Origin: Bacteroidaceae bacterium
GTDB taxonomy: Bacteria; Bacteroidota; Bacteroidia; Bacteroidales; Bacteroidaceae
Length of the DNA: 64,000 bases
Reading direction: 5' to 3'
Assembly: GCA_017965425.1 (NCBI GenBank)
Contig: JAGCPY010000057.1
Location: 1-64,000 of the forward strand
The notes beneath the pieces are model-generated. The model did not search any database, was not told the DNA's origin, and was given only the letters and a program-made list of their open reading frames with translations. The translations under genes and the position numbers were made by a program. Below are positions 4,091 through 31,009 of this stretch, piece after piece (position 1 is the first letter of the stretch; each line of letters begins with the position of its first letter).

Positions 4091-4164
4091 CAAAAGTACA
4101 TCAACGCCGCTGTACCATCAAAAACACCGCTATAAACCTCTTGATTTAACAGTTTGAAGACATG
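4091..4164 (-). promoter_or_regulatory. Shared-motif promoter, copy B
   Basis: Minus strand: TACTTTTG -7 box at 4091-4098; exactly 41 bases upstream lies the motif at 4140-4164 ending CTGTTAAATCAAG. The half nearest the promoter is conserved and the far half is degenerate (18 of 25 positions match copy A). It drives the hydrolase at 4062. Confidence 0.75.
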
Positions 4165-4165
4165 A

Positions 4166-4239
4166 GCGGTCTTAAATGTGTTAAATCAAGACTTTGTGCC
4201 GTTATAAATGCTGTGTCTTGCTGTTTTCATCTACCTTTG
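4166..4239 (+). promoter_or_regulatory. Shared-motif promoter, copy A
   Basis: The motif at 4166-4190 reads GCGGTC, one base, TAAA, one base, GTGTTAAATCAAG. Exactly 41 bases later comes TACCTTTG (4232-4239). Transcription starts near 4246, 23 bases before the gene at 4269. Copies A and B face away from each other and their conserved halves form an inverted repeat. Confidence 0.8.
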
Positions 4240-4268
4240 CAGCAGTTTAATGACAAAAAACAAGTATT

Positions 4269-5024
4269 ATGCCCAGATTAGAAAGATTCAAAGAGCAGGA
4301 GATTCCTTACGAGGACCTTGCCAGGTTCGGTCTCACCCAGGAGATGATTGACGACCTGCCGCAAAGCGTGATGACGCGCCTGTTGTCGTCGCGCGAGACC
4401 CCGCTTCTTCCCTTGACGACCAAGACAGAGGACGGCGAAAGCGTCGTTTCGTATGCCCGTCTGTCGCTTCTCCGTACAAAAGACGGCATGGTGAACGTGG
4501 CCTTCATCCCCCGATGGGAGTCTAACGAACTTAGCGAATATACCGCCGAGCAGCAAAAGATGCTGAAGGAGGGGATGGTGATGGCAAAGGACGGCTATTA
4601 CATCCAGTTTGACGATACAATCCAACAGGTCATCTCCGTCCCCACGGACATCATCAGGCAGAACCTGAACATTCTCTGCACGGAGGTGCCCATCGGCAGG
4701 GCAGACTATGCAAGGCTTGTCAACGGCGAGGTCGTCCAGCTGAACGGCCCGCAGAATCCGTTCTCAATAGGCATCGACCTCAACGACGACATGGGAATAC
4801 GCATCAGCAACGGCAGCCGGATGGCATGGAAGGAGGAAACGCAGGTGGAGCGCCTTCCCAAATACAATTTCGGCATCTACGGGTGCTGGATGGCCGATGA
4901 CCTCGGCAACCTGTCGTATGTGCCGGAGGACAGCTACACCCGGGAGATGGAGGCAGAACAAGTCCGGGCCGGGCAACAGCATGCCGCTTCGGCGCAGATG
5001 AGCAGCATGGGAATGGGGCGGTAG
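4269..5024 (+). CDS. DUF4099/DUF3945-like mobile-element protein
   Basis: 251 residues, soluble. The N-terminus (IPYEDLARFGLTQEMID, then SRETPLLPL) matches the DUF4099 type common in Bacteroidetes mobile elements; the middle (YARLSLLRTKDG, then FDDTIQQVISVP) resembles the associated DUF3945 region. The tail is Gln/Ala/Met-rich and low complexity. No catalytic motif is visible. It is the only plus-strand gene of this part of the element, transcribed alone from copy A of the shared promoter and ending before a small stem-loop. Related proteins often sit beside topoisomerase or helicase genes; its role here is unknown. Confidence 0.65.
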   Translation: MPRLERFKEQEIPYEDLARFGLTQEMIDDLPQSVMTRLLSSRETPLLPLTTKTEDGESVVSYARLSLLRTKDGMVNVAFIPRWESNELSEYTAEQQKMLKEGMVMAKDGYYIQFDDTIQQVISVPTDIIRQNLNILCTEVPIGRADYARLVNGEVVQLNGPQNPFSIGIDLNDDMGIRISNGSRMAWKEETQVERLPKYNFGIYGCWMADDLGNLSYVPEDSYTREMEAEQVRAGQQHAASAQMSSMGMGR

Positions 5025-5069
5025 CCAGTCAGCAGAAATGTAAGACAATCATATTAGAAAATACCTTTG

Positions 5070-5101
5070 CCATCGTATTGCTTGTGAAAGTAGTACGATG
5101 G
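5070..5101. terminator. Stem-loop between convergent genes
   Basis: 8-bp perfect stem (CCATCGTA at 5070-5077 with TACGATGG at 5094-5101) between two converging genes, followed on the plus strand by TTTCTCGTT. It is a weak bidirectional terminator at best. Confidence 0.4.
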
Positions 5102-5108
5102 TTTCTCG

Positions 5109-6422
5109 TTAATGGTGCCAGCGGCGGCCAGCCTGTCTGTGTTCCTCAGTCTCCACCTCCTCCACGTCAGGTCGTTCTTCGTTGTCGCCTTGCTTCCTGT
5201 CTGCGCCAAGGCTCTCGCCGTCGACAAGCCGGGCATCGCCCGTCTCATCGACGGCTACCGTCTGTGTCTCATCTTCGCGGATGTCAAGCTTGGACTCGCG
5301 GCTGCGGACGACCTCCTCAATCTTCGTGTCTATCATGTCGGAGGCCTTCTTCACGTCACTCAGTACGGTGTTCAGATACTTCGGCTTCTGGCGAAGATTG
5401 CCGAGCCACGCCTTCAGGTAGTTCAGCGAGTCGTCCTTGTCCTCGTTCTCGCCCTTCTCCTCCTTCAGGTATTTTACCATGCCGTACTTCTGGCAGAGGA
5501 CGGCGGCACTCATCTCGGCCACCAGCTCCTCACGACCGTAGGAGGATTCCATGTCACGACCGAGGCGGCCTTCTATGCCTGTGCTGTGGGCCATCTCATG
5601 GAATGCCGTCCCGTAGAACTTGCTCTCGTCACCCGCCTCGGCGAACTGGCGTTTCTCCGGCAGCGTGATGGAGTCGTTCAGCTTGGAATAGAAAGCCCTG
5701 TCCTGATATTTCAGGCTGATGGGGCAAAACCATTTCTGGCCCTCAATCATGGTGTCGAGCGGCTCAAACGCAAACGTCCTCGCCTCACCCTGTTCACACG
5801 GCCTGGCCTGATGGGCCTCCAGTATCTTGTTATACAGTTCCGGCCTTGCCTCCCTGATGTTCGTCTGCTCGATGTTGAACACGTTATAGACGCGGCGGTG
5901 GGGATAGACCTCATACTGCTTCTGCTCTTCAGGCGTCAGCCGCTTATAGTCATCGTAGCTGATCCGCTCCTTGGTGTCCTTGTCGACGACGGTGAAGGTG
6001 GTGAGGAAGACGGGAAAGCAGCTCTCTCCCTTGTTCACCCCCACATGAGGCAGGGACTGGCCATCGTCTCCAAGGGCGGGCTTCCATCCCTCCCTGGTCT
6101 TGACGGCATTCAGGCGGCTGATGCGGTCGAAGGTGGCAAAGACAGGCAGCCGGTAGCCGGCCCGCTGCATCTCCAAGAGAAGGAGGAAGGAGTTGCTGGC
6201 ATTGTAATGACGCCCGTCAAGGTTCTGCGGAAGGCCGACGATGCCGTCGGTGAACCACGGCTTCTGCCAGTTGCTCTTCTCCATGTCCTCCAGCTTCTCT
6301 ATCATCATGTCTGCGAAACGCTGCAGGGCGCGGTCCTCACTGTTAGGGGAGCCGTCGGCCTTGTGCCAGCGGCCCCTCTGTCCGGATGCCTGGGAGGCAT
6401 CCCTGTTGTAGCTCTGTCTCAT
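5109..6422 (-). CDS. ArdC-like antirestriction protein with zincin domain
   Basis: 437 residues. The N-terminal half matches the ArdC ssDNA-binding domain (MEKSNWQKPW, then LPQNLDGRHYNASNSF, then VFNIEQTNI). It is followed by a zincin-like metallopeptidase with HEMAHSTG (HExxH) and a downstream GREELVAEMSAA helix that supplies the third ligand and support. The last 80 residues are acidic and probably disordered. ArdC-type proteins bind incoming single-stranded DNA and protect it from host restriction. It is last in the long operon that starts at 25285, 9 bases after the OB-fold gene. An ArdC-N-like segment recurs inside the giant protein of the same operon. Confidence 0.85.
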   Translation of the reverse strand: MRQSYNRDASQASGQRGRWHKADGSPNSEDRALQRFADMMIEKLEDMEKSNWQKPWFTDGIVGLPQNLDGRHYNASNSFLLLLEMQRAGYRLPVFATFDRISRLNAVKTREGWKPALGDDGQSLPHVGVNKGESCFPVFLTTFTVVDKDTKERISYDDYKRLTPEEQKQYEVYPHRRVYNVFNIEQTNIREARPELYNKILEAHQARPCEQGEARTFAFEPLDTMIEGQKWFCPISLKYQDRAFYSKLNDSITLPEKRQFAEAGDESKFYGTAFHEMAHSTGIEGRLGRDMESSYGREELVAEMSAAVLCQKYGMVKYLKEEKGENEDKDDSLNYLKAWLGNLRQKPKYLNTVLSDVKKASDMIDTKIEEVVRSRESKLDIREDETQTVAVDETGDARLVDGESLGADRKQGDNEERPDVEEVETEEHRQAGRRWHH

Positions 6423-6431
6423 AGACCATCG

Positions 6432-7052: not shown

Positions 7053-7076
7053 AGCTGAATTGTTTGTTTTTGATGA

Positions 7077-8549
7077 TTATGCCAGGCGCACATTGTTGGC
7101 CTGTTGTTCTTCCGGATAATCAATGTCGAAATTGAGGGATGCCGTCTGCCGCAAGGCGTTCACATCGACACCGTTGCGCTGTCTTTCTATGACGGTCTGC
7201 CGGTCAGAAGGGCTGTCCGTAAGTGCCGGAATGACCTTCTGCCCGCTGTCCTGCTGTGCAGTTCCTCCTTGGTCGAGCTGCATGGCCAATGCGATGACGC
7301 CCATGAACAAGGTCGAGATAAGGTTGTCCAGGCCACCGCCCCGGCTTACGCCCTCCTCACCGTTGTTCATCATCAACAGGCTCAGCCAGTCTTTCGGGTC
7401 GGTGGAGTTGGAGAGATGGGCAAGCAGCTGTCCGTCGTCCTTGATTGGTTCAGCCAGGCGTCGCCCCGAATCATCTATCTGTATGCTCTCCTTTCGTGCT
7501 GCGAGCAAGTCCTCGCCAGTCCCTTTCCTGGTCACCGTACCTTCCAGCTGTCCGGCGACGGCAATCTCTGCCAGGTAGCCAAGAGGGTCAACGGCCTTGA
7601 AAGAGGTCTCTCCGGCTTCCTGCCGTTTCACCGTCAGGTGGAGATGCGGGCCGGTGCTGTTGCCGGTATTTCCCGAAACACCCACTTTCATCCCTGCGGA
7701 AACGGTATCTCCTTCAGACACGCTCTGCTCTGAGAGGTGACAGTAGGACACCCGCCACTTGGAGCCGTCAGGACGGTCATAGACCACGGTGACATACTTC
7801 CCGCTGGTGCTGTCGCTGCCTACGCCGACGACCTTTCCTTCATCCTCCGTTGCGAGGACATCCACATAGCTGGCCCGAAGGTCTATGCCGTTATGGGTAT
7901 GGTTCCTGTAGCTGGTAGGGTCTTTCCCGAAACCGTCGGACATCACAAGCTCACCGGCAAGAGGAAAGGAATAGTTGCCTGGCACGACGGCATAGCCACC
8001 GCCCTCGTTCACTCCGCTGACGCGGAAGTCCGCCCGCCCTCCCTTCATATATCCTATCTCTATGCCTTTCTGCCGGGCATCAGCAATGGCCATCTGGTCA
8101 TAACGCTCCAGATAGTTGCCGTTAATGATGGACTCTATGGTGTCCGCATAGCGGTTGGGATTACCCGGTGGCCTGTAGGCATAGCCAGCGTCGCAGATGG
8201 CCTGTGCCCAATGGGCATGGTCGTCACTCGCGTAGGTGAAACAGCGGGAATAGCGCTGGTTCTCCATCAGGAAGCGGGAATGGTGCTCAAAGCTCTCGGC
8301 CTCACTGCCATACTTGCAGAACTCCACCATGCCCATGTCGTTACGCACGACGTAAGGATTGTCGGAACTGATCCAGCCTTTGGTGGCATGGATGCCGAAC
8401 ATGTTCTTGTCCTCCCTTGACAGGGCGCTCTCCCCCCAGGAAGATTCAATGGCAGCCTGGGCCAGCGTGACGGAGGCAGGGATGCCATACCGCTGCTGCT
8501 GCTCCATCGCCCACGCTGCATATTTCTCAAAGAATGCCTGCTTGTCCAT
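7077..8549 (-). CDS. Glucosaminidase-M23 hydrolase without signal peptide
   Basis: 490 residues. The glucosaminidase domain comes first (about 1-150; RYGIPASVTLAQAAIESSWGE), then an M23 peptidase (about 195-330; HNGIDLRA and HLHLTVKR). The C-terminal 160 residues include a possible membrane helix (NLISTLFMGVIALAMQLD). There is no signal peptide at the N-terminus, so export would need another route, such as delivery with the transfer machinery. The domain order is the reverse of the secreted hydrolase at 3064. It starts 5 bases after the stop of the giant gene. Confidence 0.8.
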   Translation of the reverse strand: MDKQAFFEKYAAWAMEQQQRYGIPASVTLAQAAIESSWGESALSREDKNMFGIHATKGWISSDNPYVVRNDMGMVEFCKYGSEAESFEHHSRFLMENQRYSRCFTYASDDHAHWAQAICDAGYAYRPPGNPNRYADTIESIINGNYLERYDQMAIADARQKGIEIGYMKGGRADFRVSGVNEGGGYAVVPGNYSFPLAGELVMSDGFGKDPTSYRNHTHNGIDLRASYVDVLATEDEGKVVGVGSDSTSGKYVTVVYDRPDGSKWRVSYCHLSEQSVSEGDTVSAGMKVGVSGNTGNSTGPHLHLTVKRQEAGETSFKAVDPLGYLAEIAVAGQLEGTVTRKGTGEDLLAARKESIQIDDSGRRLAEPIKDDGQLLAHLSNSTDPKDWLSLLMMNNGEEGVSRGGGLDNLISTLFMGVIALAMQLDQGGTAQQDSGQKVIPALTDSPSDRQTVIERQRNGVDVNALRQTASLNFDIDYPEEQQANNVRLA

Positions 8550-8554
8550 AGTTC

Positions 8555-11500
8555 CTATCTGCGAAAGGAGCGGGTCTGAGTCTGCTCATCCTCCACGTCT
8601 TCTTCCTGTTCCTCGTCTGTCTCTGCGGTAACCTCCTTGTCATCTTTGACGGTCTCTTCCTGGTTCTGCTCCACGGCCTTTTCCTGTCCTTTGGTCAGTT
8701 CTGCCTCAAACAGCTTGGCGGCAAGGGCCACCTTGTAGCCCGCCTTGTCGTCAACAAGCCAGAAGCGCTGCCACTCCGGGCTGTCGCGGTCTATGCGGGT
8801 GTTCAGACGGCTGTTGTCATCGACGACGGCACTGACATAGACTTTCTTGTCGTCGTATTTGTCCTTGGAGATATGAACGCTCTTGATGCGGTCGAGATCG
8901 ACATTTTCCACCTTCGGTATCAAGAAGTCCTGTTTCAGCTCCGGATGCTGCTGGGCAAGCATATAATACTTCTGTCCCATCTCCTCGCGCACGGCATCGG
9001 ACTTCTCTGTCTGAATGGCAGAGAAGAACTTGCCAAGGTCGGCAGCCTCCGGCTGTATGGTGACAGCCTCACCCCCTGCGGGCTTCACATAGAACACCCA
9101 GTCGTTCTGGTCGTTCTTGATGGCGCTGACCTTCTCTATCTCAATCTTGCCGGTACGTGCAATCTCTTCTGACAGGTCAACCGTCTCGTCCGGGACAAGG
9201 TCGTACTGCTTCAGGTGAGCCACCTCCACCTGCTTGTCGGCAAAGAATTCATTGGACTGGTTTAGGCCGAGGGCGCCACCGGCATTGTAGAACTGCACAT
9301 CGTCGATTCCCTGGCGCTTCAGGGCAATGACGAAGCGGTTCTTGTTCATGCCAGGCACCTCGTTGTTCTTCTCCAGTGAGGCTCCGGCAGGAAGGATGAC
9401 GGCGGCACTCCTGTTCTTCTGGTCGCGCACTATCACGACCTGTTTGTTCTCGACATTCGGGATGGTGGCCAGTTCGCTGGCGATGGTGTACATCCTCGGA
9501 CATACCGATGTGGCTGGCCTTTCGCCACGGACGACCGCATAGTCCACCTCCTTGCCTGCGGAAATCTTGTCAAGAACCTCGACGGCTTTGTTGACATCAC
9601 GCTCTACGGCATCCAGCAGCTTCGGATCTTCCTTCAGCTCACGCTCCCAATAGGGTATCAGCGGGCGGTTGTCCCTGCTGATGGTGGCAGGAAGCCCCTG
9701 ACGGGTCATCATCACTCCTGCCGTCAGCTCCTGGACAAGGCGGTCATACTTGTCACGGTCTTCAGGGAGCATGTTCAGGCGCGCCCCCCGATTCAGACGG
9801 TCGGGCGTGCCGGTATATGCCACGGCAGCACGGTATACATCACCGGCACGCTCCATGGCAAGGGTCATCCCCTGACCTGGCACAGATGACGTATGGCTGG
9901 CAACATTGAGGACATTCTTCTCACGGTCGTACTGCGTGAAAGCCATGCCTGTATTCACCGTTCCGCCAGACTGCCGGATGGCTTCCGCCAGCCTGTCCGA
10001 GGCGGCATAGACTTCGCCCTCCGTTGTATGCAGGCCCAGACGGGCGTCTTCCACCTTGTCGCAGATGGCGACTTGGTTACCGACCTGTACGAGCTTGGGC
10101 AGATGGCTGTCCAGCTCCTCTGCAGGGAAAGAGACGGACATCGTCTGCGATTTCACGGTGTCACCGTCGGGCCTGACGAGTGACAGGCCGAGTATTCCCG
10201 CCGCCTTCTCTGCCTCGGCACCGTATATCTCGTAATTGTCGCCGACACGGAAGAGTTTCATGGTGTCGGGATTCTCTGCTGTCATCTTTTCAAGCAGCTT
10301 CATGCGCTCAGCCTGAACGTCTGTTGCGGATTCTATCATGTCAGGCCGGACAAGCTGCTTATACTCTTCCTTCTTCACCACCAGAAGGGTTGTCTGGTCT
10401 ATATTGAAGATGGGCTTCATGTTCTTCTTACCCTGTGCGTGATACAGTTCACGCTCCTGTGGGGGCAGGGCAAGATAGGCTGTCCTGTCGATGACATCGT
10501 TCTTGTTGTACTTGTTGACAAACTTATCCCAGTCATACCAGTTGTATGGTAGTCCTTTCTCCTTGCCCCGGACGCTGATGCCCTCCCGCTTGGCGGCAGC
10601 AAAAGAGGTGTAGATATTAGACCTGTAGCCGTTGGCATCGGAGTGCAGGGCCATCATCATGCTATTGAAGGGGCTGACCTTGGTGCCCTTGGACAAGAAG
10701 GCCGGAGCCTGCTTGCCGTCTTTGTTCATCCAGACACCGTCACGCTCTGATGCTGCATGGAGCGCACCGGCAAGGAGGGCGGTTTGGAGCGCGAGGCCGT
10801 CGGACACGTCCTGCTTCTCCTCTTTCTTCTCATCTTCCTGCTGTTTCTCCTCCTTTTCCTTCTGTTGTTCAGAGGCTACCTGTTCCTCCTCAAGGTTCTC
10901 GCGCACCTCGGCCTGGGCACGCTCCACCTTCTCCACAAAGCTGTACACATCGACCTTGACCGTCTCACCGGCGCCGCCAAAGGCCGGAGTCTGGTTGAAC
11001 TCGTTCTTTTCTTCCATGTGGATGTCGAAAGACAGGGAGCCGTCGAACTGTTCCTGGAAATGCTCTATCTCGGCAATGTCGCTCTCCTCCAGGCCATCGT
11101 AGGCATCTGTCCCGTTCTGTAAGGCTGCCAATGCCCAGACAGGCACATCGTATGTGCCAAGATGCCTTGTCTCCTGTTTCTGCTGGGTCTGTTCCTGAAT
11201 GGCTTGCCGGGGTTGTTGCTCTTCAACTTTCTCTTCCTTGACAGGAATGGGCTGCTTCAGGGTGTTAGGGGAGAAATACTTGGCCACCAGCTGCTCGGCA
11301 GTGGCCTTGCGGCAGCCCTGCTCATCCTTGCTGAAATAGGCATCCACGTCGTTCTTGTACAAGACCTGTGTCTTACGCTGGCCGTCAATGACAGCAGAGA
11401 CCGCATACTTTCCGGCATTCTCGCCCTTGTTGAGCTTGAAGACCTGGGCCTTCTCCACATTCACGCCTTCTGGCATCGAATACTTCGCGTAGTCGATGTT

Positions 11501-14500
11501 CCAGCCTCTCTTCTTCCGTTCAGTCTGCTGCTCTTGCTGCTGTTCCTGAACCTCTTCTTGTTTCATTTCTTCCATGGTTTTGTCCTCCATTTGTTTAATG
11601 TTATCTTTTAATATTTCTACGAAATACTCTCCGTCGGGACCGGAAGCGAGGCGGTTGACATCAATGGCCTGCTCACCATTGCCGGCCACATAACCATCAC
11701 CGACATGCTTGATATATTTCACGTCGTCAAGCTCCTGCCAGCCGAATCCCCTGTACTGCAAATCAAGGTGGGCACCGCCCATGTCAAGCTCCAGCACATC
11801 ACCATCGTGAGGGATGGCCTTGTCAAGCAGCAGCCTTACGGCATCGACAGGTGGCAGCTGGTCTGGGTCGTTCATCATTTCTATTTCCGCGAGTTTCTCT
11901 GCCGTCGGCATGATATGATGCTTCTGCAGGGCCAGTTCCGGCTCCATCCCTTCCATAAGGTCTTTCTCCACGGCATCATAAAGACGGTGCTCTTTGGCTA
12001 CCATCAATGCCTGGTCAATAGTAAGATTCAGTTCAGGCTGCCATTGGACGGCATTCCTAACCTCGGCAAAGAGATTGCCGATGCCATCGGGACAAAGGTC
12101 GTCGAGTCCCTTGATGTATGAAGGCACGCCGTCATTGTCAATGGCGCCGTCAATGCTGACGTGGCCGCCTCTGCATGTAATCTCCTTGATGTATGCCATC
12201 TGACAGGTGTCCATGTCGTTTATCACCTTCAACGGCGCACCAGTCCTTTGAACAAAGTCAATGCCGCCATTGCCTAACAAATCTGCCAACTGTTTCTCAT
12301 GCTGTGTCATATATCCTGTATCTTGCTCCTTGGCATAATAGATTCCTTCCTGGAAAGCGCTGCGGCTGACGGACATCACATCCTCAAGGCGCACGCCGAA
12401 AGTCTTCAACTGTGAAGACAGCTTGGTCATCGTCCTGGTGTCAGTCATACGCACCCCATCTTCACTGCCGTAGATGATACAGCGGTTACCGCCCATCTGA
12501 TGGACATAGGCTGCAAGCACGCCGACGGAATCGTCCTTGACAATATCCCTGGTCGTATTCCAGGGAAGGAACACATTACCCGTAATATGCTGGGCTTGGT
12601 CTATCACGATCAGGCTCAGCTTGTCGCGCTCACCCAGACGGTGGCTACTGATGAAAGACGCGACAGATGCTGCAGAAGATGCAGTGGATTGCTCCGGATT
12701 CCAGCCTTTGGAGAACACCTGACGGTCAAACTGATAGGTAGGCACGGGAACCATCCGGCTCTCGTCACCAACAGAGAGTGACTGGTCGATACAATAAGCA
12801 TCGGTATATTCGCCGTATTTCCCCGATGTGGTGTCGATGATGATGCTGGGCTGGACGGCCGAGCCGAACACCTCCTGCATACGCTGGTGCATCTTCATGT
12901 CGAGGAAGCTCGCCTTCAGCGAACCGCTCGGATGGTTGTGGACGAACCATACTTTCTCAGGCTTCAGCTCGTTGAAAGCGACGAGGGCCTTCTCAATGGG
13001 GGCTGGCACCTCGTTATAAGTGCCTATGCCCAGGTGAATGACAAGCGGCTTCCCGTCCTTCACCATCGCCAGGAAGCTGTTCTCCACGCTCTGGTCTTCA
13101 AGGCTCTTGAAGATAAAGGCTATGTCTTCGGCTGAGTCAATCACATCGCCCCCGACAAAGCTGAAGAAGCCGTTCTCACGATAACGGCGCTCCACATAGC
13201 ACTGCTCTCCGTCAGAGAGAGTGCGCAGGTGTAATGCTGTCAGGTCGCGTGAAGCGTCCTTGGCAGGATGCCCAACCGTCTGGATGGTGACAGGCTCCCG
13301 GGCATTTCCTTTCGTCATCGGGGGATCACTGAAAAGGTCGAGCTGTACGGCACTGCGAACGGTGGGGTGAGAGAGGCTTTGCAGCGTCTCATGCTCTCCC
13401 ACGGATAGCAGCTCTTTCACTTTCTCCTTGCCGATGAAGGCTATCTGGTAGCCGTCACGGATGAGCCTTGGAGAGAGGGCGTCCAGCGAATGATAGCCGT
13501 CACCTCTCTCGTCCAGGCGGAACACGGCATCATTGCCGATGCCGTCCGTCCGGGCGAAGTGCCCGCTGTTCTCCTTGTCGTAATGGTGTATGACAAGTGC
13601 ATGTGTACCGACAAAGACAAGCTCTTTGGCGTTGGGGTCCTCATACCCGGCAATCGTCTTCTGACGGCTGCCAGCCAAGGACTGGACGGCATCAAAGACA
13701 GCCTTCGAGCCAAGATAGCTCTCATAGCCAGGACTACTGCCGCGACGGATGTCGACGACCAAAGGCTCGGCAGCGACTGGACTCTCCTGAAAGGCGGCCT
13801 CGCCCAGGGGGCGGTAGTTCATCACCCTTCCAAGATATTTGTTCTTCAGGCTGAAACGCTCGCTGAGCGGCACAAGCTCCCCTTTCTTGTCATAGACGAC
13901 AGGCTCCAGGCTCTTCAGTGAAGAGACGTGGCACTCCTGGCTCACGGCACTGGCAAGCGTCACGACGACGCCCTTGCCAAGCGCCTTGACACAGGCCTCG
14001 GCGGTGTTCCCGCTGTTCACCACATTGTCGATGACAACGGGGAGCCGGTCATTGGGCAGGTCGCCGGAGAGGCGGACACCCAGGATACCGGAGCCGAGCG
14101 GCCTGCCCGTGCGCCGCTTCACGTCATACTGACGCTCGCGGGCATCCCCTGTGAGCACATCGACGACAGGCACGCCGGTACGCCCGGAAATGGCGTTGGC
14201 CAACAGGAGCATGTCGGTAGCATGGCCGGAATGGCTGGGCGCCGGGACGAGCACGGCATTGTCGGGTATCAGGGGAGCCATCAGTGAGGCAGCCTCGCTG
14301 ACGGCACTCTCAGCGCCATGCTTCACCTCACGGGCGAGGCGGTCAAGCTTGCCGCGATAGCCGTCAACGGCGATAAAGGGCGTGACGCCATTGCCCACAT
14401 GCTCCCGCAGGGCATCGTTGAACAGGGCCTTCGCTTCTTCAATGTTTCCTGTCTCCACTGCGTTGGCATACTGCCTGTCACGGTCTTTCAGCCACTTCTC

Positions 14501-20500: not shown

Positions 20501-23500
20501 CAGCCTTTCAAGGGCAGCATCGAAATGCTGGATCTGCTCATTGGAGAAGTTCAGCTTCTGGAGGACGACCTGCTGCTGCTTGTAGAAGGCCTTGCGCTCT
20601 GCATCCATGCCGAGGATGCGCTTCTCCAGTTTGGCACGCTCCAGCAGGTCGGTGTTTCCGCTGGTGATGGCCACGTACTCGGCAAAGGGCATACCGTTGT
20701 TCTCATCTTCGCCGCCCTGGTCGAAGCTGCGCTTGCCTAATGCGCCCGTCTTCATCTGGCGTATGAACTCGCTCTTGGCCTGAAGCAGATAGAAATTGTA
20801 GCTGTCAAGGCTGCGCTCGACGGCATAGACGAAGACTTTCACTTCATTGTTGGCGTAGTCCCTGGCCACCTCGTTGCCCTTTCTCCTGGCACGTCCGTTG
20901 CGCTGCTCCATGTCGCTGGGACGCCAGGGCAGGTCGAGATGGTGGACGGCGACGGCACGCTGCTGCGCATTGACACCCGTACCGAGCATGGTGGTGGAGC
21001 CAATCATCACCCTGATGTCACCACGGTTCATCCTGTCGATGAATTCCTTCTTCTTCTTTTCCGTACCGGCATCCTGGATGAACTGTATCTGGTCGGCAGG
21101 TATGTTGTACTGGCCGACAAGCCTGTCCTTCAATTCCTGATAGACGCTCCATTCGCCTTTCTTGGGCGTGGAGAGGTCGCAGAAGACGAACTGGGTGCCC
21201 CGCTGCTCATTATACTGATAATAGATGTCGCTGATATTCTTTGCGGCAACGCCTATCTTGGTGTCATCTCCCTCACGGTATTCGGGATTGACAAGCCTCG
21301 GGCTGAGTGAGCATTTCTTGCCAAGGTTCGTGACAATGAGCATCTTCGCCTTATCCTCGTTATCACTAAGGGAGTCACGGAAGATCAACTCTGCGTCGCC
21401 GCTTTCTGCAAACTGCAGGAGGCGCTGCTGGAAGTCCTGCTGGTCTTCCGTGGGCTGGATGTTCACCAGCTGCACATCCATGCCCGGACGCTCCAGTCCC
21501 ACGTCGGCAGCCGTCTTATAGTCGGTAATCTCATTGTAGAAGGCTCCTAGCTCCGGCACCTTGATAAACTGGCGGAAGCGCTCTTTCATCACGATGCTGC
21601 CCGCGACGTTGATTTCGTAGTCACGGCTCTTACGCGCGAAGACGGCGGCCCAGGCATCGAAGCTGTTGATGTCCTGCATGGACATGGCCTTCGGACGGAG
21701 GTACTTGAACAACAGGTACAGCTCGGTAAGGCTGTTGCTGATGGTCGTGCCGCTGAGGAACGTGGCGCCAAGGTCGCGGCCCGTGCGCTCCTGAATGGTA
21801 CGGATGGCATACTGGAGGTTACGGGCACGCTGGCTGCCCTTCGGGTCTCCGAGACCGGCGACACGGCTGTCACGGGTGGTGAAGGCGAGGTTCTTGAAGG
21901 CCTGGCTCTCGTCGATGAAGATATGGTCGATGCCCATCGTCTTGAAGTCGACGACATCATCGGCGCGATGGGCAAGGACGGCATTGAGGGTCTGCAGCTG
22001 GGTCTCAAGGTTCTGCTTCCGCTTCTCTAAGCCGGAGCGCATCCTGCTGCTGACGGAATGCCCCTGGTGCTCATAGACCTCCAGGGCTTCGTCAATGGCC
22101 CATATCTCTTCATACAGGACTTTCCGCTGAATGTCGGCTGACTGTGGAATCATCGTGAACTGGTCGTGCGACATGATGATGCAGTCATAGTCGTTGTTCT
22201 TCATCCTGTTGAAGAAGTTCTGGCGGTCGGAGAAGTCCTTCTGCGTGGCATAGAGGATGCGGTCGGCGGGATAGGCCGCCTGATAGGTGGCGGCAATCTC
22301 CGCGACGTTGGCCTTCATGCCGATGATGATGGGCTTGTGGGCCAGGCCGAGTCGTTTCATCTCATGGGCAGCGATGCACATCGTCATCGTCTTGCCAGTG
22401 CCGACCTCATGGTCGCAGACGCCGCCGCCGTTCTGCAGCAGCATCCACACGCAGTCCTTCTGCGACTTGTAGATGTCGCTAATCTTGTACTTGCTGACGG
22501 CCAGCCCCTTCAGGTCAAGGCCGGGAAACGTCTGATGACCGCCGTCATAGCTGGCACGGACAAAACAGTTGTACTTTCTGTTGTACATATCGGCCAGGTC
22601 CTTCTTCCACTCGTCCGGATGACGGTCAATCCACTCGGTGAAGCCGTCGCGAATCTGGTCAATCTTGCTGGCCGCCAGCTGTATCTTCTCATGGTCAGGC
22701 CCCATGATGGGGTCGCCGTTGGGCTTGTAGCCGATGCACTTGTTGATGACTGGAACAGTGTTATACAGGGCATGGCGCAGCAGGTCCTCGCCGTCGTAGG
22801 TCTTCGTCTCGCCCGTCACGGCAAACTCCTGTGTGAGCTTGGCACTTTGGTCCGACACGTCCACCACGAACTCGTCGAGCTGCGGGGCATAGCCTATCTT
22901 GATGTCGGCTTCGAAGAACTCGGAGGCGAACTCGGAGAAATAGCTCTTGGGCATCCAGCGCTCGCCGAAGTTGAAGTCCAGCTCATCATAGGCAATAGGA
23001 CGTGGGCGCACGGACAACAGGGCATGATACGAGCGGGCCACCTCATCATCATCACTGTCAAGATGCTCTTTGCCATAGTTTCTCTCAAAAAACTCAATCT
23101 TTTCAACGACATTGCCGGCAAGGAACTTGTCGGAGATTTCATACTCTCCGTCCATCGGATTGTAATATATGCGCTCCTTCAGCTGGTCGCGCAGCTCGTC
23201 CCCGGTAAAGTCGCTGATGGAGGCCATGTATTCCAAGTCCACGCTGCCTGTACGGTTCAGCGAGGCGGAGAGCGCATCAACAGCCGTCTCCACATGTCCG
23301 TCCTGGTTGATATTGAAAGAGACGGGACGGAGGAAGATGTCAGCCTTCACGAAGTGGCCGTTCTCGCTGTTCTCCAGTGTGAGCGTATCACGGCCCTGAA
23401 CATCCATCAGGAAAAGCCTGGCATTCTTTCGCTCATTCAGGTTGCCGTACTTGCGGATGAAGCTGTCATAGTGGGTGTTCAAGTCCTTGCGAAGGTCGGG

Positions 23501-25063
23501 CTGTTCCTCCCGCTGTTCTGCCTCCTTCTTGTACAGCTGCTCGTAGGCATCCCTTATCTTCACGTAGAGCTTCATGCGCCCGGACTGGTCTTCTGACAGT
23601 TCTATGGGCGTAAAGGTGATGTCGTGGCCGATATTGGTAAGATGGCCCAGCTGGCCGTCGTCCTCGACGACAATGCCGTTCCGGTAATGGGGCAGTACCT
23701 CGCCTTTGTACGGGCGCGGCTCCATCGGCGGCCCTTGCTCTTCCTGTGAGGCGGTATCGTCTGCCCAGAGATCAAAGAGGCTCAGCTGCACCGGCTGTTC
23801 CTGACGCGCAGGATGCTGCTGCCGTGGCTTGGGCGGCTCCAGTTTCATCTGTTCGGACTTCGTGACATTGCTTTTATAATAGTCCACATAGTCGCCATGC
23901 AAGTCGCGGGACATGTATTCCGTGAGCAGGGAAGAGACGGCATCCATGCCGCCGTCATGGGTGAACACGAGCGTTGGCTTCCCGTAAGGGTCGGTGCCGC
24001 GCTCTTCCCTGTTGGAGATGAAGGCCTCGGAGTCGGGCGCCATCATCGACTTCCACCAGTGACTGTTCAGGCTGATGTCCGAATAGTCCTCGCCGTCGAT
24101 GGTCTTGAAGCCTTTCTCCACTTCACAGAAGGCGAGGCTGTCGGGGTCCAAGGTGGAGTCGTAGCCAGTGTACTTCTGAAGAATCACGAGGTCGCTGCCG
24201 ACCTCCGTGCCTGCCTCGTCGGCAAAAAGGCCGTCGGGCAAGCGGTAGGCCCCGACAAGGCGGGCGTTCTTTATCAGCTCCTCACGGATGGAATTGTTGG
24301 AGGGGGAATCCATGAAGCCGCGGGACGTGATGAAGGCGACAAAGCCTCCCTCGCGCACCTGTTCAAGGGCTTTCAGGAAGAAATAGTTGTGGATGGTCTT
24401 CGTTGATGCTGCCTTCACGGCATTGCCGGAACGGGCGAAGCCATCGTCGAATACTGAGATGTCGCCAAACGGGATGTTCGACGACACCAGGTCATACTTG
24501 CCCTGCTGGGAGACGCCGACGGTCTCAAAGCCATCGACGTGCACCTGCTCGCCGGGATATAGGGCTTTCAGCACCTTTCCTGTGATGATGTCCTTCTCGT
24601 AGGCTGTTGCCTTCATATTGGGATAGGACTGCTTGAAGGCTTCCACGAAAGTGCCCTTTCCCGCCGACGGGTCGAGATAGCTCTTCACTTCCACGCCCTG
24701 CCTCCTGAACACCTGCGCGATGGCCTGAACCACTTTGACAGGGGTATAGAATGCTGAGAGTATGGAGTTCCTGATGCTTGTGACGAATCTCTTGTACTCT
24801 GCAACGTCCCTGGCATTCTCCTTCAGCAGGGCATACAGCTCCCTGGTGGCATTGAACAGCGGGCGGTCGGAACGGCTCCATTTCGCCACGTCATCCTCTT
24901 CACCGCAGGGATTCAGGATGAACTTCAGCCCGCCAAAGCCACTGTACTTCCGCAAGGTGGCCTTCTCCTTTTCTGTCGCCTCACGCCCGGAACGCTCAAT
25001 CTCGAAAGCCGTCCTGATGGCAGAGATGTTGTCCTTCAGTTTCTCCGATTTCCTGTATGCCAT
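8555..25063 (-). CDS. Giant polyvalent protein, 5502 residues (methylase-helicase-MutS-I-zincin-RadC)
   Basis: A single unbroken 16.5-kb frame. Domains in order (residues approximate): adenine-type DNA methylase (DPSAGKGTF 133; SNIPFG 195); SNF2-like helicase (VGTGKT 889; DESQ 1050; [10 protein letters not shown] 1390); phosphoribosyltransferase ([10 protein letters not shown] 1980); MutS domain-I-like (F2327-Y-E2329); polyvalent-protein modules (FFSNAQRAV 2480; [14 protein letters not shown] 2870); two tandem zincins (HEYTH 3167, HEYAH 3388); a second phosphoribosyltransferase ([10 protein letters not shown] 3680); RadC/JAMM (HNHPSG 4042); Gln/Glu-rich linker near 4500; ArdC-N-like part near 4815; a second MutS-I-like domain (N4943-Y-E4945). 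Polyvalent proteins of phages and conjugative elements are thought to enter the recipient with the DNA and counter host defence. It follows DUF1896, as in Bacteroides BmhA-type modules (from memory). Confidence 0.9.
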
Positions 25064-25308: not shown

Positions 25309-25382
25309 CAAAGTAACTAAGATTCTGTCCGACCTGCGAATTTGGAAACGCAAATCTCTTGATTTAACACGTTTACGACCGC
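25309..25382 (-). promoter_or_regulatory. Shared-motif promoter, copy C (giant operon)
   Basis: The minus-strand motif at 25358-25382 (GCGGTC, then TAAA, then GTGTTAAATCAAG) lies exactly 41 bases before the -7 box TTACTTTG at 25309-25316. It drives DUF1896, the giant gene and the three genes after it. Confidence 0.8.
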
Positions 25383-25383
25383 A

Positions 25384-26325: not shown

Positions 26326-26374
26326 AACAAAATGATTAAATAGTTCAATGTGTATTTGATGGAGTATATGACAG

Positions 26375-27886
26375 CTATCGGTGTATGCCCGTCTTTCTCT
26401 TGATGTTCATGCCCAGCGTCCCGCCGTCGGGAGTGAGCATGTTCCTGGCCAGAAGGAAGCACCTGCGTCCGAAGGCCATGTCGTCCTCGTCATTCTTCCT
26501 GCCCCACCCGGAGCCAGGGCCGCCACTGCCTCCGGCACTCTCCGCATACTGGGTAGCCTGGTCGATGTAGCCGAGGAAGAGCGCACTGGCCACGGCTGTT
26601 ATCTCTGCTGCCCGTGTCGCCATGACCTCAAACATCGAGCCGTCGAAGATGCTGTTAAAATGTGTTTCCTGCGTTGCTGTCAGAGAGTCGCGGAAAGAGG
26701 CAATCTGTTCGCTTCGCCCGATGGCATCCTCGGCGGCAATCCTCCATCCGACGGCCTCCATGTCGTGCAGCGTCTTGTTGTGGAGGGCCGGCATTTCCCT
26801 GTTGATTTGCCGCTGCATCTCGTCGTAGTCCTGTTGTATTTCCGCACGTCGGTGGCCAAGCTCCTTCAGCTGCTCGGTGGCAGTCCTGAGCTGTTCCTTC
26901 CTCCCCGAAATCTTGTCTTCCGTAAGTTGCAGTTCGGTCTTCAGCTGCCTGATCTTCGCATCCAGCTCTTCTTTCTCCGCCTCGTTGCCGGTGACCTCGT
27001 TTTCCAACAGTTCTATTTCCGCAAGAATATCCAGTCTGTGTTTCTCCAGATTGTCCAGCATGGTGTTCAGGCCTTTCAGCCGTGTCTCGGCCTTCTTGAC
27101 TTCCCTGTTGATGTCATGGAGCAGCCGACTCTGCTCCTGGATGTTCTCGTCGTTTTCCGCTATCCGCTCCTGTAGCCACTGGAGATAGGACTTGTGCTGT
27201 GCGCCCGTGCGTGCCACGCTCTCTCCTCGGGCCAGCCCGTACTTCTTGTTGACTTCGGCCAGCTCGTCGTGGAGTTCCTTGTACTTCCTCCTGGCATCCT
27301 CCTTGCTCCCGCCGAAGAAATGATTGTATGACACTTTGTCCTTTTCAGTTATCGGGAGCAGTGTACAGTGGATGTGTGGGTTGGACTCGTCGAGGTGTAC
27401 GACGAAAGCTGCAATGTTCTGTTCACCATATTTCCTGGCCATGAAGTTGTACATGTCGACGGCCCACTGTTCAATGGCGGCGTTCCGGGTGACGCGGGAG
27501 TTGTCTGCACCTCGTCCGTAGTCCACTTCCTGGCCGCCGTAGGCCAGCTCCCTCATCCTCTCGCGTGACCCCTGGAGGATGATGTCGGCCACAGACCGCC
27601 GCCTTCTCGGGTCGTTTGCTGACAGTCCGATGTTCGGGTCCTTTATTCCCCGCTCTTTATATATCTCCCTGATCCGTTTCGTGACGGACGTGTCTTTGTC
27701 AACTTGCCTTATCACGCCGCCTCTGCACACCTCAAAATTCAAGTGCTCGCGGGTGGGGTCATACGTGCCGGCAATTTTCGACTTCCATGCTTTTCCTTCG
27801 CCCACGCGAAGGTGTTCATTGCTCTGTGCTATCGTCATCCCTTTGGATGCCCGGACGTCACAGACTTGTTTCTGTTCCTTTTCCAT
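26375..27886 (-). CDS. MobV-type relaxase
   Basis: 503 residues. The N-terminal 200 residues form a Pre/MobV relaxase: the metal-binding triad motif HLDESNPHIH is clear and is preceded by an N-terminal block (SKGMTIAQSNEHL, then NFEVCRGG). From about 230 to 400 the protein is a long coiled coil, and the end has a Gly-rich linker (AGGSGGPGSGWGRK). Relaxases of this class nick one strand at oriT and lead it into the recipient. A structured gene-free stretch of 227 bases lies directly upstream, the usual place for the origin of transfer. Confidence 0.85.
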   Translation of the reverse strand: MEKEQKQVCDVRASKGMTIAQSNEHLRVGEGKAWKSKIAGTYDPTREHLNFEVCRGGVIRQVDKDTSVTKRIREIYKERGIKDPNIGLSANDPRRRRSVADIILQGSRERMRELAYGGQEVDYGRGADNSRVTRNAAIEQWAVDMYNFMARKYGEQNIAAFVVHLDESNPHIHCTLLPITEKDKVSYNHFFGGSKEDARRKYKELHDELAEVNKKYGLARGESVARTGAQHKSYLQWLQERIAENDENIQEQSRLLHDINREVKKAETRLKGLNTMLDNLEKHRLDILAEIELLENEVTGNEAEKEELDAKIRQLKTELQLTEDKISGRKEQLRTATEQLKELGHRRAEIQQDYDEMQRQINREMPALHNKTLHDMEAVGWRIAAEDAIGRSEQIASFRDSLTATQETHFNSIFDGSMFEVMATRAAEITAVASALFLGYIDQATQYAESAGGSGGPGSGWGRKNDEDDMAFGRRCFLLARNMLTPDGGTLGMNIKRKTGIHR

Positions 27887-28113
27887 GTCTGGTGAAATAT
27901 TGTTTGGAGATGGGGTACTTAGGGTGGCATCCTAAGCCTGATACCATGCCGCTGAGCTTGCTCGTTATAAGTGCGGCATTGCATGTTTTGGTGTGCCTCC
28001 GGCCACGAAACTGCGTATTAGGCTACACCCTAACTGTACAGGGCGTTGAAACTCGCGCAAGCGCCTGTCTGTGGTTTTCAACGGACTGGCAGTCAGGGTA
28101 CCGCTCTCTGCCG
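27887..28113 (-). other. Candidate origin of transfer (oriT)
   Basis: Gene-free stretch between the relaxase and a winged-helix gene. It holds a 6-bp stem with 7-base loop (27918-27936), a 7-bp inverted repeat ATGCCGC/GCGGCAT with a 20-base gap (27946-27979), and further GC-rich small repeats near 28050. Position and structure suit oriT; the nick site cannot be assigned. Confidence 0.5.
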
Positions 28114-28614
28114 TCACGGAGTGGCGGCTGGTTCCTCGTCAGGCTCATGGCTGACGGCAACACCCCCTGGGGTGACCGAAGAGAGGTCTGAGGTGTCTGT
28201 GACATGCCGTTCCCCGTTCAGGAACATCCGGGGGCCTTCACCCACGATGTTGTTAAGTCTGACGACGGTTCTGTTCCCCATTGGTGTCAAGGTAATGGCA
28301 CCTATCTCTTCGAGTCTGTCAAGGAACTTCTTGGCAGTAGGACGCATCCAGCCCCAGGCATTGGCCAGGAGGAGGACGCTGCTGTTCATGTAGCCGTCGT
28401 CGAAGGTGGAGTCGGAGATGCGCTGACGGTCCAGCAGGTCGAAGAAGGCTTCGGCCTTCGTGTAGCGGTGCTTGCCGCCTTTTGACAGGTTGGCTATCGT
28501 GCGGCCGTCCAGGAGATATTCCCACAGTTCGAAATTCGTGACCACCTCCAGGGTGGATTTCTGTGCTGACGATGTGTCAGGCTTATTGGATAGTCTGTTG
28601 TTCTGTATCATCAT
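28114..28614 (-). CDS. Winged-helix DNA-binding protein near oriT
   Basis: 166 residues. The central part (KAEAFFDLLDRQ, then LLANAWGWMRPTAKKFLDRLEEIGAI, then NRTVVRLNN) is a typical winged helix: recognition helix, then beta wing. Similar proteins are common in Bacteroides plasmids and phages as replication or mobilization accessories. The tail is Pro/Ser-rich. It may bind the adjoining candidate oriT, or act as a regulator of the relaxase (inference). No family name is assigned. Confidence 0.6.
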   Translation of the reverse strand: MMIQNNRLSNKPDTSSAQKSTLEVVTNFELWEYLLDGRTIANLSKGGKHRYTKAEAFFDLLDRQRISDSTFDDGYMNSSVLLLANAWGWMRPTAKKFLDRLEEIGAITLTPMGNRTVVRLNNIVGEGPRMFLNGERHVTDTSDLSSVTPGGVAVSHEPDEEPAATP

Positions 28615-28656
28615 AGAAAATGTTTTAAGTGTACAAAAATGATTGCATTATTTGAT

Positions 28657-29373
28657 TTAGCATTGCTGGTGTATCATCGATTGGACAGGCAAGGTGTCCG
28701 TCCGTTTCCTGTAGAGTCTTTCCAACACTTCTCTGGAAACGGCATGAGCTGTCCGTTGAACATATCTGGGATAGATGGCCGCGGCACCCAGGATGATGTA
28801 GAGCATCTGGACGATGACAATGTTCCGTCCTGAAGAGTGAAAGGCGCATGATCCGAGAAGGAGCAGTGTCAGGCTGCAGATGGCAATGAACCATCTTCTG
28901 TTCAGGCTCAGCTTCAGCAGGATCTTGTCCGTCATCCTGTAGAAGAAAAACGGGATGACCATCAATCCGGCAAGCAGTGTCGCGTATCGAAAGGTGAGAT
29001 AAGGCGAATATACAGTATAGAGTCCTGTCAGCCTTTCAACCTGGCTGTCATTATCGTGTGCAATCTTCATCACCTTTCTTGCGACGCTTGCCGATGCGTT
29101 GAAGTCAACCATGACGACCGTCAGCAGCACGAGGAGGAGGGTGAAGGAGAAGAGCTTCCTGGCCTCCATGCTGTGCTTCATGGCATTGTAAATACTTATT
29201 GAAATATTGAATGATTTACGCCGCCACTTCTTCAAAGCGGGTCTCGCTGAGATGACAGCAGAGAAGAGGTTCCGGCAGGAAGGTGAGGTGTCTTTCTTCG
29301 GCAAGACGAGATGCTTGAATACGAATGGAATGGCCGACAGGAAGAGGGCAAGCAATATCTTGAAGTACAACAT
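28657..29373 (-). CDS. Multi-pass membrane protein, unknown
   Basis: 238 residues with about four or five hydrophobic segments (start; KLFSFTLLLVLLTVVMV; ATLLAGLMVIPFFF; WFIAICSLTLLLLGSC; IVQMLYIILGAAAIY). A basic cytoplasmic stretch separates the first two. No family is recognised. It follows the 151-residue gene by 23 bases in the operon that starts with the lipoprotein at 30906, so it probably works at the envelope with that protein; entry exclusion is one possibility. Confidence 0.6.
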   Translation of the reverse strand: MLYFKILLALFLSAIPFVFKHLVLPKKDTSPSCRNLFSAVISARPALKKWRRKSFNISISIYNAMKHSMEARKLFSFTLLLVLLTVVMVDFNASASVARKVMKIAHDNDSQVERLTGLYTVYSPYLTFRYATLLAGLMVIPFFFYRMTDKILLKLSLNRRWFIAICSLTLLLLGSCAFHSSGRNIVIVQMLYIILGAAAIYPRYVQRTAHAVSREVLERLYRKRTDTLPVQSMIHQQC

Positions 29374-29396
29374 ATCTTTGGATTGCTTTACAATTA

Positions 29397-29852
29397 TTAA
29401 AAGAAGTCCTGCACTATCTCCGCCTCCTGTCCGACCCCTTCCAGAAGGATGCCTTCAAAGAAAAGGGAGTCGAGCCAAAGCTGTCTGACATGGCGGAACA
29501 TGGTGTCAAGGGAGTCGAAGAACTGCACCCTGATGCTGTCTATGAGGCCATGCTGGAGGGAGTCCATCATCACTACGGCCATCTCATGCTCGAAGGGCCG
29601 GGAATAGAGCGCGACATGGTAGACGCTGCCGTCATCGCTTGTCCTGGCATATAGGACGTGGAAGTGCAGATATGTGACAATCTCATCCGTCATGTCCTCT
29701 GCCAGCTGTTGGAAGGCGAGGGGGATAATCGTCTCAAAACAGTCCTCCCTTTTTGTAACTGCGCCGCTGTCGTCAACAAAATAGGCGGACAGGTAGCCGT
29801 GGAGCTTTCCTTGAAATGACTCCATGCTTTTTGTCAAATATTCTTCATTCAT
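29397..29852 (-). CDS. Conserved-looking unknown protein in lipoprotein operon
   Basis: 151 residues, acidic, without signal peptide or clear membrane segment. Not recognised. It begins one base after the stop of the lipoprotein gene, so the two are translationally coupled. Aromatic and hydrophobic patches (VTYLHFHVLYART, VYHVALYSRPFEHEM) suggest a compact alpha-beta domain. Confidence 0.55.
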   Translation of the reverse strand: MNEEYLTKSMESFQGKLHGYLSAYFVDDSGAVTKREDCFETIIPLAFQQLAEDMTDEIVTYLHFHVLYARTSDDGSVYHVALYSRPFEHEMAVVMMDSLQHGLIDSIRVQFFDSLDTMFRHVRQLWLDSLFFEGILLEGVGQEAEIVQDFF

Positions 29853-29853
29853 A

Positions 29854-30906
29854 TCACAGGACAGATTTGAGGTAGGAACTGAGGAAGAAGTCAGACAGTA
29901 TTTCCTTCATCTTGTTCAGGTCGTCGGAGCCTTCGGGGGTGCCGTCAAGATACGCAAAGAGTGACGGCAGCTCTTCGGCCAGCCGCAGGAAAGACTCTTC
30001 CTGGTCGGTGGTCAGTGAGGCCATGGAATAGTTGTCAATGGACATGAAGGGCTGGATGAGCATCCATCTGTAGTTGTTTCTCTGCTGCCCGTCCAGTTGC
30101 TTCATGGCCTTTATGTCCCTCATGCAGGCTTCGGCGTTCTGGAGGATTCTGCGGTTGAAACGCATGGTGAGAAAGAGCGTCATCCGCTCGCTGACCTCAT
30201 TCTTGCTGTCAGATACGACTCTCGCATACAGGTCGTCGAAGAGCTGGGACGTCTTGTCGGTGATGGCGGCAAGGTGCTCTTGGTCCACCTCGCTCAGGTG
30301 ATTCATCAGCGAGCGGAAGCACCGGTCTTCCTCTTTCAGGAACATGACCACGTCGTGTTCCTTGGAAAAGGCGGCGGTAGTGTCAAGCAGGGCATTGTAT
30401 GTCTCTATCGTTCTCCTTATGTCATCGTAGGCATGGCACTTGTCCATGTCATTGAACATCTTGCAGGCCTGCTTGTAGTCCTGGGAGTCACGTGTCTTGT
30501 CACGGCCGATGGCTGTGTGAATCTTCAGGAAGGTCACATCGTGCAGTGAGCGCGGCCGCGTCTTGGCTATCCGCAATATCTCGCCCCGTATAGAGTCGGC
30601 GACGGAGTAATAATCAGTGGTCAGATGGCTATGCGAGTGTATGGTCGTGTCATTGGACAGACAGGTGTACACCGAGTCTTGCAGTTCGAGCCAGGTGGAG
30701 ACGACGGATGTCAGCTTCCCGGTGTCGGCATTCTTCACCTCGCGGAAGGCTGCCAGTTGCTTTTGGCACGCGGCGACTGCTTCTTCTGACGAGTGAAACA
30801 CGAAACGGTTGCTCTCTTGTTTGCTGCACGAGGTGTGCAGCATGATGGCAAACAGGGCCATAGCGGCCCAGGCCATCCCTTTTGTCTTGTTCGATTGATA
30901 CTTCAT
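29854..30906 (-). CDS. Element-encoded lipoprotein
   Basis: 350 residues from ATG 30906; a longer frame from 30981 would start ahead of the promoter and is rejected. Signal peptide MKYQSNKTKG plus hydrophobic stretch, with a lipobox ending LHTSC, then SKQESNR. The rest is mostly helical and charged, with no enzyme motif. Transcription starts near 30929, 23 bases before this ATG, from copy D of the shared promoter. It is likely anchored in the outer membrane or periplasm and may help mating contact or exclusion (inference). Family unknown. Confidence 0.65.
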   Translation of the reverse strand: MKYQSNKTKGMAWAAMALFAIMLHTSCSKQESNRFVFHSSEEAVAACQKQLAAFREVKNADTGKLTSVVSTWLELQDSVYTCLSNDTTIHSHSHLTTDYYSVADSIRGEILRIAKTRPRSLHDVTFLKIHTAIGRDKTRDSQDYKQACKMFNDMDKCHAYDDIRRTIETYNALLDTTAAFSKEHDVVMFLKEEDRCFRSLMNHLSEVDQEHLAAITDKTSQLFDDLYARVVSDSKNEVSERMTLFLTMRFNRRILQNAEACMRDIKAMKQLDGQQRNNYRWMLIQPFMSIDNYSMASLTTDQEESFLRLAEELPSLFAYLDGTPEGSDDLNKMKEILSDFFLSSYLKSVL

Positions 30907-30935
30907 GTTGATAACGATTTGGTGAATTGTGCAGG

Positions 30936-31009
30936 CAAAGGTATAGTTGTTTGACTGCACAAAAGAACATGGCAGGGACAAACTCTTGATTTAACACTTT
31001 TATGACCGC
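30936..31009 (-). promoter_or_regulatory. Shared-motif promoter, copy D (lipoprotein operon)
   Basis: Minus-strand motif at 30985-31009 (GCGGTC, then TAAA, then GTGTTAAATCAAG), exactly 41 bases upstream of TACCTTTG at 30936-30943. Confidence 0.8.

Follow-up and report, generated by a model that had tools for sequence, protein, structure and literature searches.

What is known of the control of gene transfer in Bacteroidales comes mainly from CTnDOT and tetracycline. We analyzed a stretch of 64,000 nucleotides from a Bacteroidaceae bacterium, termed the window (bases 1–64000 of the 76,932-base contig JAGCPY010000057.1, in a genome assembly of 3.73 Mb and 96 contigs), which carries a mobile element with four copies of a short motif upstream of its promoters. 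We consider it likely that this motif, referred to below as the operator, is the binding site of an activator that, in a family of Bacteroidales elements, switches on the genes for excision, mobilization and conjugation.

The closest described systems are the transfer-activation regulons of the SXT/R391 integrative and conjugative elements and the IncA/C plasmids, governed by SetCD and AcaCD (PMC4344509, PMC4542580). As in these regulons, many promoters of transfer, excision and uncharacterized genes within one element share the operator, divergent promoters carry back-to-back operators, and related element families have diverged operators; in the SetCD/AcaCD systems unrelated mobilizable islands also bear the operator before their excision gene, which may have a counterpart here (PMC4344509, PMC4542580). 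Likewise, one operator stood before several operons, with up to seven sites per contig before type IV secretion system (T4SS), relaxase, OmpA-type and HTH_17 genes. The sites of SetCD and AcaCD are of class II, lying next to the −35 element or overlapping it (PMC4344509, PMC4542580). Here, in another phylum and with another sigma factor, 41 bases separate the end of the operator from the −7 box, which places the operator upstream of the −33 region. Unlike in the SetCD/AcaCD systems, no FlhCD-like activator turned up here, no search for the FlhC and FlhD families having been made.

Trans-activation of other elements is already known in Bacteroides, where RteA and RteB of CTnDOT induce the NBU1 excision gene and CTn4-bt genes (PMC1976400), and a review of mobilizable elements treats the helper effects on NBU1 and SGI1 alike (PMC5704250). 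CTnDOT resembles our system in belonging to the Bacteroidota and in placing excision and transfer under one cascade (PMC1976400); it differs in that we detected RteC in no more than 2 of 24 motif genomes, and in that many promoters here share one operator. The sigma-ABfr promoters of Bacteroidota contain TAnnTTTG at −7 and TTTG at about −33 (PMC7366714). The −7 boxes described below match TAnnTTTG, whereas only a conserved WTTY is left of the −33 element, and the promoters have an operator further upstream. The ArdC and MPTase-PolyVal domains and a giant protein are features shared with polyvalent-protein conjugative elements (PMC5512222). The motif itself is described in none of the titles and opening abstract lines that searches of openly licensed PubMed Central papers listed on Prevotella/Bacteroidales mobile elements and their regulation.

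Operator geometry at element promoters

The operators and −7 boxes of the window are the following:

4166–4191, plus strand: operator copy of the DUF4099 promoter, 19 of 19 letters of the family consensus, N41 to TACCTTTG
4139–4164, minus strand: operator copy of the peptidoglycan hydrolase promoter, 19 of 19 letters of the family consensus, N41 to TACTTTTG
25357–25382, minus strand: operator copy of the DUF1896–giant polyvalent operon, N41 to TTACTTTG
30984–31009, minus strand: operator copy of the lipoprotein–mobilization operon, N41 to TACCTTTG
4232–4239, plus strand: −7 box TACCTTTG
4091–4098, minus strand: −7 box TACTTTTG
25309–25316, minus strand: −7 box TTACTTTG, one mismatch to TAnnTTTG
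30936–30943, minus strand: −7 box TACCTTTG
4159–4171, unstranded: dyad GAC-N7-GTC of the divergent pair, start-to-start spacing 8

The sequence GCGGTCNTAAANGTGTTAAATCAAG occurs exactly at 4166–4190 (plus), 25358–25382 (minus) and 30985–31009 (minus), as an earlier, sequence-only reading of this DNA had reported, and in none of 100 shuffles; the window holds no further match with up to three mismatches. That reading had also listed a half-degenerate fourth copy (4140–4164, minus), which does exist but is not degenerate, since it matches all 19 specified letters of GTCNTNAANNTGTTAAATCAAGA. At all four promoters exactly 41 bases separate the operator from a TAnnTTTG-like box, so that the constant gap claimed before holds throughout the window. 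The box-to-ATG gaps are 29, 28, 23 and 29 bases; in place of the leaders of about 20–25 bases proposed earlier, a transcription start some 7 bases past the box would give leaders of about 16–22 bases, and would put the operator at about −80 to −56, in class I activator territory. The −33 box had been called weak or missing. It is indeed degenerate, but not missing, since WTTY is conserved there across the family; the hydrolase promoter has TTTTTG within its −33 region. Full matches to the family consensus in the 3.73-Mb genome are confined to the four window sites, a fifth match on a different contig having three mismatches, and the reversed-pattern control gave one match.

We then scanned about 85,000 species genomes with the left half and core alone, GTCNTNAANNTGTTAAATCAA, excluding the box from the pattern, and obtained 105 sites on 99 stretches. 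The taxon of each site follows the record title, and this labelling is a main risk of error. For Bacteroidales, a box with at least five of six letters stood at exactly N41 in 46 of the 51 sites, 18 of these with six of six, and three more sites had a six-of-six box at N42. The corresponding numbers at N41 were 0 of 5 for other Bacteroidota and 1 of 48 for other taxa (L135, titled Trichormus), and the sole record lacking a taxon label has the box at N41. Such a box occurs at 0.56% of positions in the Bacteroidales loci. With an identity threshold of 60%, the spacers of the 50 boxed sites (46 + 3 + 1) formed 38 clusters, and with spacers this dissimilar the N41 spacing was not inherited from a single recent copy. 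The scan that had been proposed for related elements thus recovered the geometry of the window.

The refined motif comprises 23 letters, GTC-N-T-[AC]-AA-[TA]-G-TGTTAAATCAAGA-[GC]. Downstream, the WTTY element is conserved in place of the −33 box, with the final G mostly missing; its two T letters are present in 33 and 32 of 36 spacer-cluster representatives. An inverted half, TTNANGAC, with five or six of its six letters lies upstream in 28 of 62 boxed sites, a set that counts in L014 and L135, both regarded as chance. Across 23 motif genomes we obtained 91 consensus matches with up to three mismatches, compared with 25 for the reversed pattern, so most three-mismatch matches are likely chance. 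One near-identical three-mismatch sequence, GTCGTAAAATTGTTAAAATA[CT]GA, was seen in three genomes (G000:C40:23060–23082, G541:C30:2455–2477 and G548:C7:3328–3350). A viral origin of the motif was dismissed, as none of 14 viral-contig stretches had an intact GTC-N-T-N-AA half and their matches were read as chance; a variant, GTGTTAAATTCCGA, beside the G143 relaxase occurred in only 2 of 139 same-genus genomes and was not built on.

Invertible promoters of Bacteroidales typically have inverted repeats close by, and the motif might accordingly be a site of DNA processing or recombination (origin of transfer, inversion or att-like repeat) that lies near promoters by chance. The sites, however, are directional, are bound to the −7 box at N41 across dissimilar spacers, and stand in up to seven copies per contig upstream of different operons, which renders this explanation extremely improbable.

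In a survey of the contigs, sites were kept if they had a box or matched 17 or more of the 19 letters; this gave 55 sites, 48 of them boxed, with one to seven sites per contig. Ten divergent pairs were present, eight with a GTC-to-GTC spacing of 8 (GAC-N7-GTC), two with a spacing of 19 and none with any other; the pairs of the window and of genome G532 are near-identical, so the ten are not all independent. The two spacings differ by 11, about one helical turn, which suggests a dimer or cooperating dimers on one helix face. Dyad symmetry at divergent promoters would also suit a repressor or silencer that keeps the transfer genes off, and sites lacking a box exist. Yet the operator stops 41 bases short of the −7 box and leaves both core promoter elements uncovered. 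Moreover, steric repression would require neither a constant distance nor a constant helical face, and a poor −33 element, as seen here, would be frequent among activated promoters; we regard repression as highly unlikely.

In the activator reading, a dimeric protein would bind the GAC-N7-GTC dyad and touch RNA polymerase from one helical face in a class I-like manner, offsetting the weak −33 element. The contact with RNA polymerase that the sequence-only reading had proposed fits the fixed geometry, which is kept on the plasmid pE2-28 despite operator divergence (see below), and is a prediction from this geometry.

Elements carrying the operator

In the contigs retrieved, elements with the operator are of three kinds. 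The first is conjugative and is exemplified by G538:C3, which has a T4SS operon (Pfam recognises the TraG P-loop ATPase and the coupling protein), a relaxase, a giant polyvalent protein and an integrase homologue adjoining tRNA-Ser; related gene sets are present in G533 and G552. The second has transfer genes only in part (G546 and G550, in the stretches fetched), and the genomes of both are without a TraG match. The third is small, comprising an integrase homologue, an HTH_17 gene and a relaxase-like gene (G543 and G549, with pieces in G544 and G545); the relaxase-like protein tested from this kind has no Pfam relaxase match and is named by its similarity to MobV relaxases. Altogether, 13 of 23 motif genomes, mostly incomplete metagenome-assembled genomes (MAGs), yielded nothing in a search with the TraG ATPase from the full elements.

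Two observations concern the partial elements. One operator subtype, AAAATCGTAAATG..., after which ACAAAGTT often follows, is found at most sites of G550:C21 (27721, 33070 and 35325) and also in G552:C1 (220, 8045 and 19370). A subtype common to a partial and a full element of different species may reflect helper–satellite pairs. In the partial element of G546, the winged-helix gene that precedes the relaxase (G546:C30 96767–97822; L169) differs from its relatives in the N-terminal part and is possibly in decay.

For 68 sites, including the presumed chance sites L014 and L135, we grouped by blastp the genes that come first after the operator. HTH_17-type genes accounted for 13 of the 68, in two groups (8 and 5). 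DUF4099, mobilization lipoprotein, relaxase-like, first T4SS and giant-protein genes followed with four each, peptidoglycan hydrolase and OmpA-type genes with three each and topoisomerase genes with two; the remaining groups had two members or one. Pfam confirmed HTH_17 in one member of each HTH_17-type group; it also confirmed one OmpA protein and two topoisomerases, of which one is encoded by pE2-28. The HTH_17 genes beside integrases are putative excisionases, and their place behind 13 of 68 operators, together with the TraG-less motif genomes noted above, may be what corresponds here to the mobilizable islands of the SetCD/AcaCD systems. Giant-protein homologues of 6594 (G538), 7176 (G552) and 10654 amino acids (aa; G533) lie behind the operator, the G533 frame spanning G533:C5 40417–72381 (L164–L165). 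The proposal that one motif ties the giant, hydrolase, DUF4099 and lipoprotein operons together is thus supported and extends to many further transfer genes.

The genes of the window element are as follows:

3064–4062, minus strand: Glucosaminidase and peptidase M23 protein (peptidoglycan hydrolase), downstream of an operator
4269–5024, plus strand: DUF4099 protein, 251 aa, downstream of an operator
5109–6422, minus strand: protein with an ArdC N-terminal domain and MPTase-PolyVal
7077–8549, minus strand: second Glucosaminidase and peptidase M23 protein
8555–25063, minus strand: giant polyvalent protein, open frame of 5502 aa
25073–25285, minus strand: DUF1896 protein, first gene after its operator
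26375–27886, minus strand: Mob_Pre (MobV-type) relaxase
28114–28614, minus strand: winged-helix-like protein adjoining the relaxase gene, weak activator candidate
29854–30906, minus strand: predicted lipoprotein (LHTSC lipobox, by eye), first gene of the mobilization operon
36047–37207, minus strand: tyrosine integrase

DNA homology between the window and its closest relative, G532:C44 (93.8% identity), begins at window base 977. This base falls in the lysozyme gene of G532, which lies beside CTnDOT-like tra genes (TraM, VirB8 family; L188 8232–15154). In the window the lysozyme gene is cut, a PqqD-like gene lies further left (within 1–976), and the contig starts at window base 1. The G532 TraM had no match in the genome of the window, whose sole TraG match lies on another contig, and is about 60% identical to that of G538, as are those of clade C (see below). 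The window element is best read as a left-truncated derivative without a T4SS that kept the relaxase, the integrase and four operators; gaps in the draft assembly may instead account for the missing parts. As for an attachment (att) site, the regions 900–1060 and 37100–38000 share no 10- or 11-base word, and two 12-base words common to 1–4100 and 35300–38300 were judged unrelated. An AAA_14/DUF4143 ATPase gene at 33448–34797 is possible cargo and has a homologue on pE2-28 at 134095–135459.

Diverged operators on a plasmid and in clade C

A tblastn search of plasmids with TraG returned 834 records, the best being pE2-28 of Prevotella sp. E2-28 (NZ_CP091789.1; L223–L226; 70% identity), a 205-kb circular plasmid with the same backbone. 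The GTC motif was not found in the 200 of 205 kb covered. Instead, a diverged operator, TGANNNGTTAATTCANG, gave exactly eight matches in these 200 kb, all eight with a box at N41, and its reversed sequence gave none; the sites behind this consensus had initially been picked out together with their boxes, and the counting scan itself was box-free. These operators precede the T4SS, topoisomerase, mobilization, OmpA, hydrolase, DUF4099 and giant operons and one gene within the T4SS cluster, and thus sit at largely the promoters used in the GTC-type elements. PLSDB/MOB-suite types pE2-28 as non-mobilizable, despite its annotated MobV relaxase, coupling protein and Tra genes, and the family may be undercounted as conjugative.

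More distant is clade C (G012, G126 and G526), in which the core genes are present and the GTC motif is replaced by AGTATG...CATACT (or GTACGAT...ATCGTAC) palindromes:

G012:C12, G126:C17 and G526:C21 (L044–L047, L203–L212): AGTATG...CATACT or TAGTACGAT...ATCGTACTA palindromes

In nine rows, CATACT/CGTACTA stands 55–95 bases before a six-of-six box. In six of these the distance is 75–77 bases and the box belongs to a DUF4099, hydrolase or lipoprotein gene; the other three lie elsewhere. A similar palindrome was seen upstream of the G126 tra operon.

The operator therefore differs from one element lineage to the next, although many of the promoters that bear one stay the same, which argues for an activator encoded by the elements. 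An unlikely alternative source is a regulator of the host chromosome, sensing for instance stress or growth phase, for which mobile elements evolved sites independently. Such a regulator would account for the motif DNA in the 13 motif genomes that lack a TraG match and for the failure to recognise an activator common to the elements. However, G012 and G126 belong to the genus of the window's genome and yet carry the clade-C palindromes instead of its GTC-type operators; all eight sites of pE2-28, whose host is a Prevotella, have yet another operator; and the window's own genome holds no full-match site outside the element.

Since operator sequences track elements rather than hosts, an element-borne activator would be carried by the conjugative (helper) elements. 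By copying the operator, mobilizable elements would be able to wake when a helper is active. The window element would depend on such a helper, having a relaxase, an integrase and four operators with no T4SS in view. Whether the dialects, GTC..TTAAATCAAGA, TGA..GTTAATTCACG in pE2-28 and AGTATG..CATACT in clade C, represent a class of Bacteroidales transfer master activator not described in the literature consulted, with an upstream dyad at a fixed 41 bases from the −7 box and each dialect signalling a compatible helper to mobilizable elements, we judge to be an even call.

Candidate activators and a predicted transfer switch

The proteins shared by pE2-28, G538, G533 and G552 are mainly core transfer genes, and the only one among them that looks DNA-binding is the winged-helix-like protein (28114–28614). 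It has a DnaD-like PHROG match (E value 1.2e-4) and homologues in G538, G533, G552 and pE2-28, the last with HTH-type matches below the cut-off. A profile search of the protein against solved structures yielded three matches up to E 1, the best being a designed protein, and was uninformative. Other candidates were discarded. RteC (PF09357) is missing from the window's own genome and, as stated above, from nearly all motif genomes; the DUF4099 and 151-aa proteins displayed no DNA-binding feature; and a clade-C protein of 224–253 aa was found by a six-frame search of the loci available at that stage only in G526, G126 and contig G000:C19, not in the motif elements. The element-encoded activator for which the sequence-only reading had proposed a search was hence not recovered.

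Several points weigh against our preferred reading of the motif. No activator gene was found among the proteins common to the compared elements, and the likely recognition helix of the winged-helix protein, assigned by eye, does not track the operator type: the helix of pE2-28, with its different operator, is nearer to those of G533 and G552 than are those of the window and G538, which share the G533/G552 operator. This protein is consequently only a weak activator candidate. Two Bacteroidales sites of the scan (L077 and L104) are without a box, as are some element operators (e.g. G538 23563-, G543 61816-). The motif is rare and patchy: with up to three mismatches it occurs in 4 of 101 genomes (the window's own and 100 relatives), and besides the own genome the box at N41 is present only in G043; G076 and G080 lack it. 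The motif genomes without a TraG match are mostly incomplete MAGs, so a missing T4SS or TraG is weak evidence. No such operator series was seen in three TraG-homologue plasmids of Phocaeicola/B. fragilis (best matches only, one of them over the first 50 of 125 kb), and the system is thus probably not general to all Bacteroidales conjugation. Finally, the whole case rests on sequence, with MAG incompleteness and recent transfer between hosts as risks.

The occurrence of one signal before transfer, excision-like and mobilization genes of many elements of rumen bacteria suggests a common on-switch for the spread of DNA, which takes in small elements apparently without transfer machinery of their own. 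The regulon is defined by sequence and extends from conjugative elements to small mobilizable ones, with a diverged dialect on a plasmid, and it predicts which helpers can wake which elements. The operator offers a reporter for finding the activator, and pE2-28, albeit typed as non-mobilizable by MOB-suite, provides a test system in a named strain, Prevotella sp. E2-28. Eavesdropping of satellites on their helpers thereby becomes testable in a phylum where the published cases considered here run through Rte.

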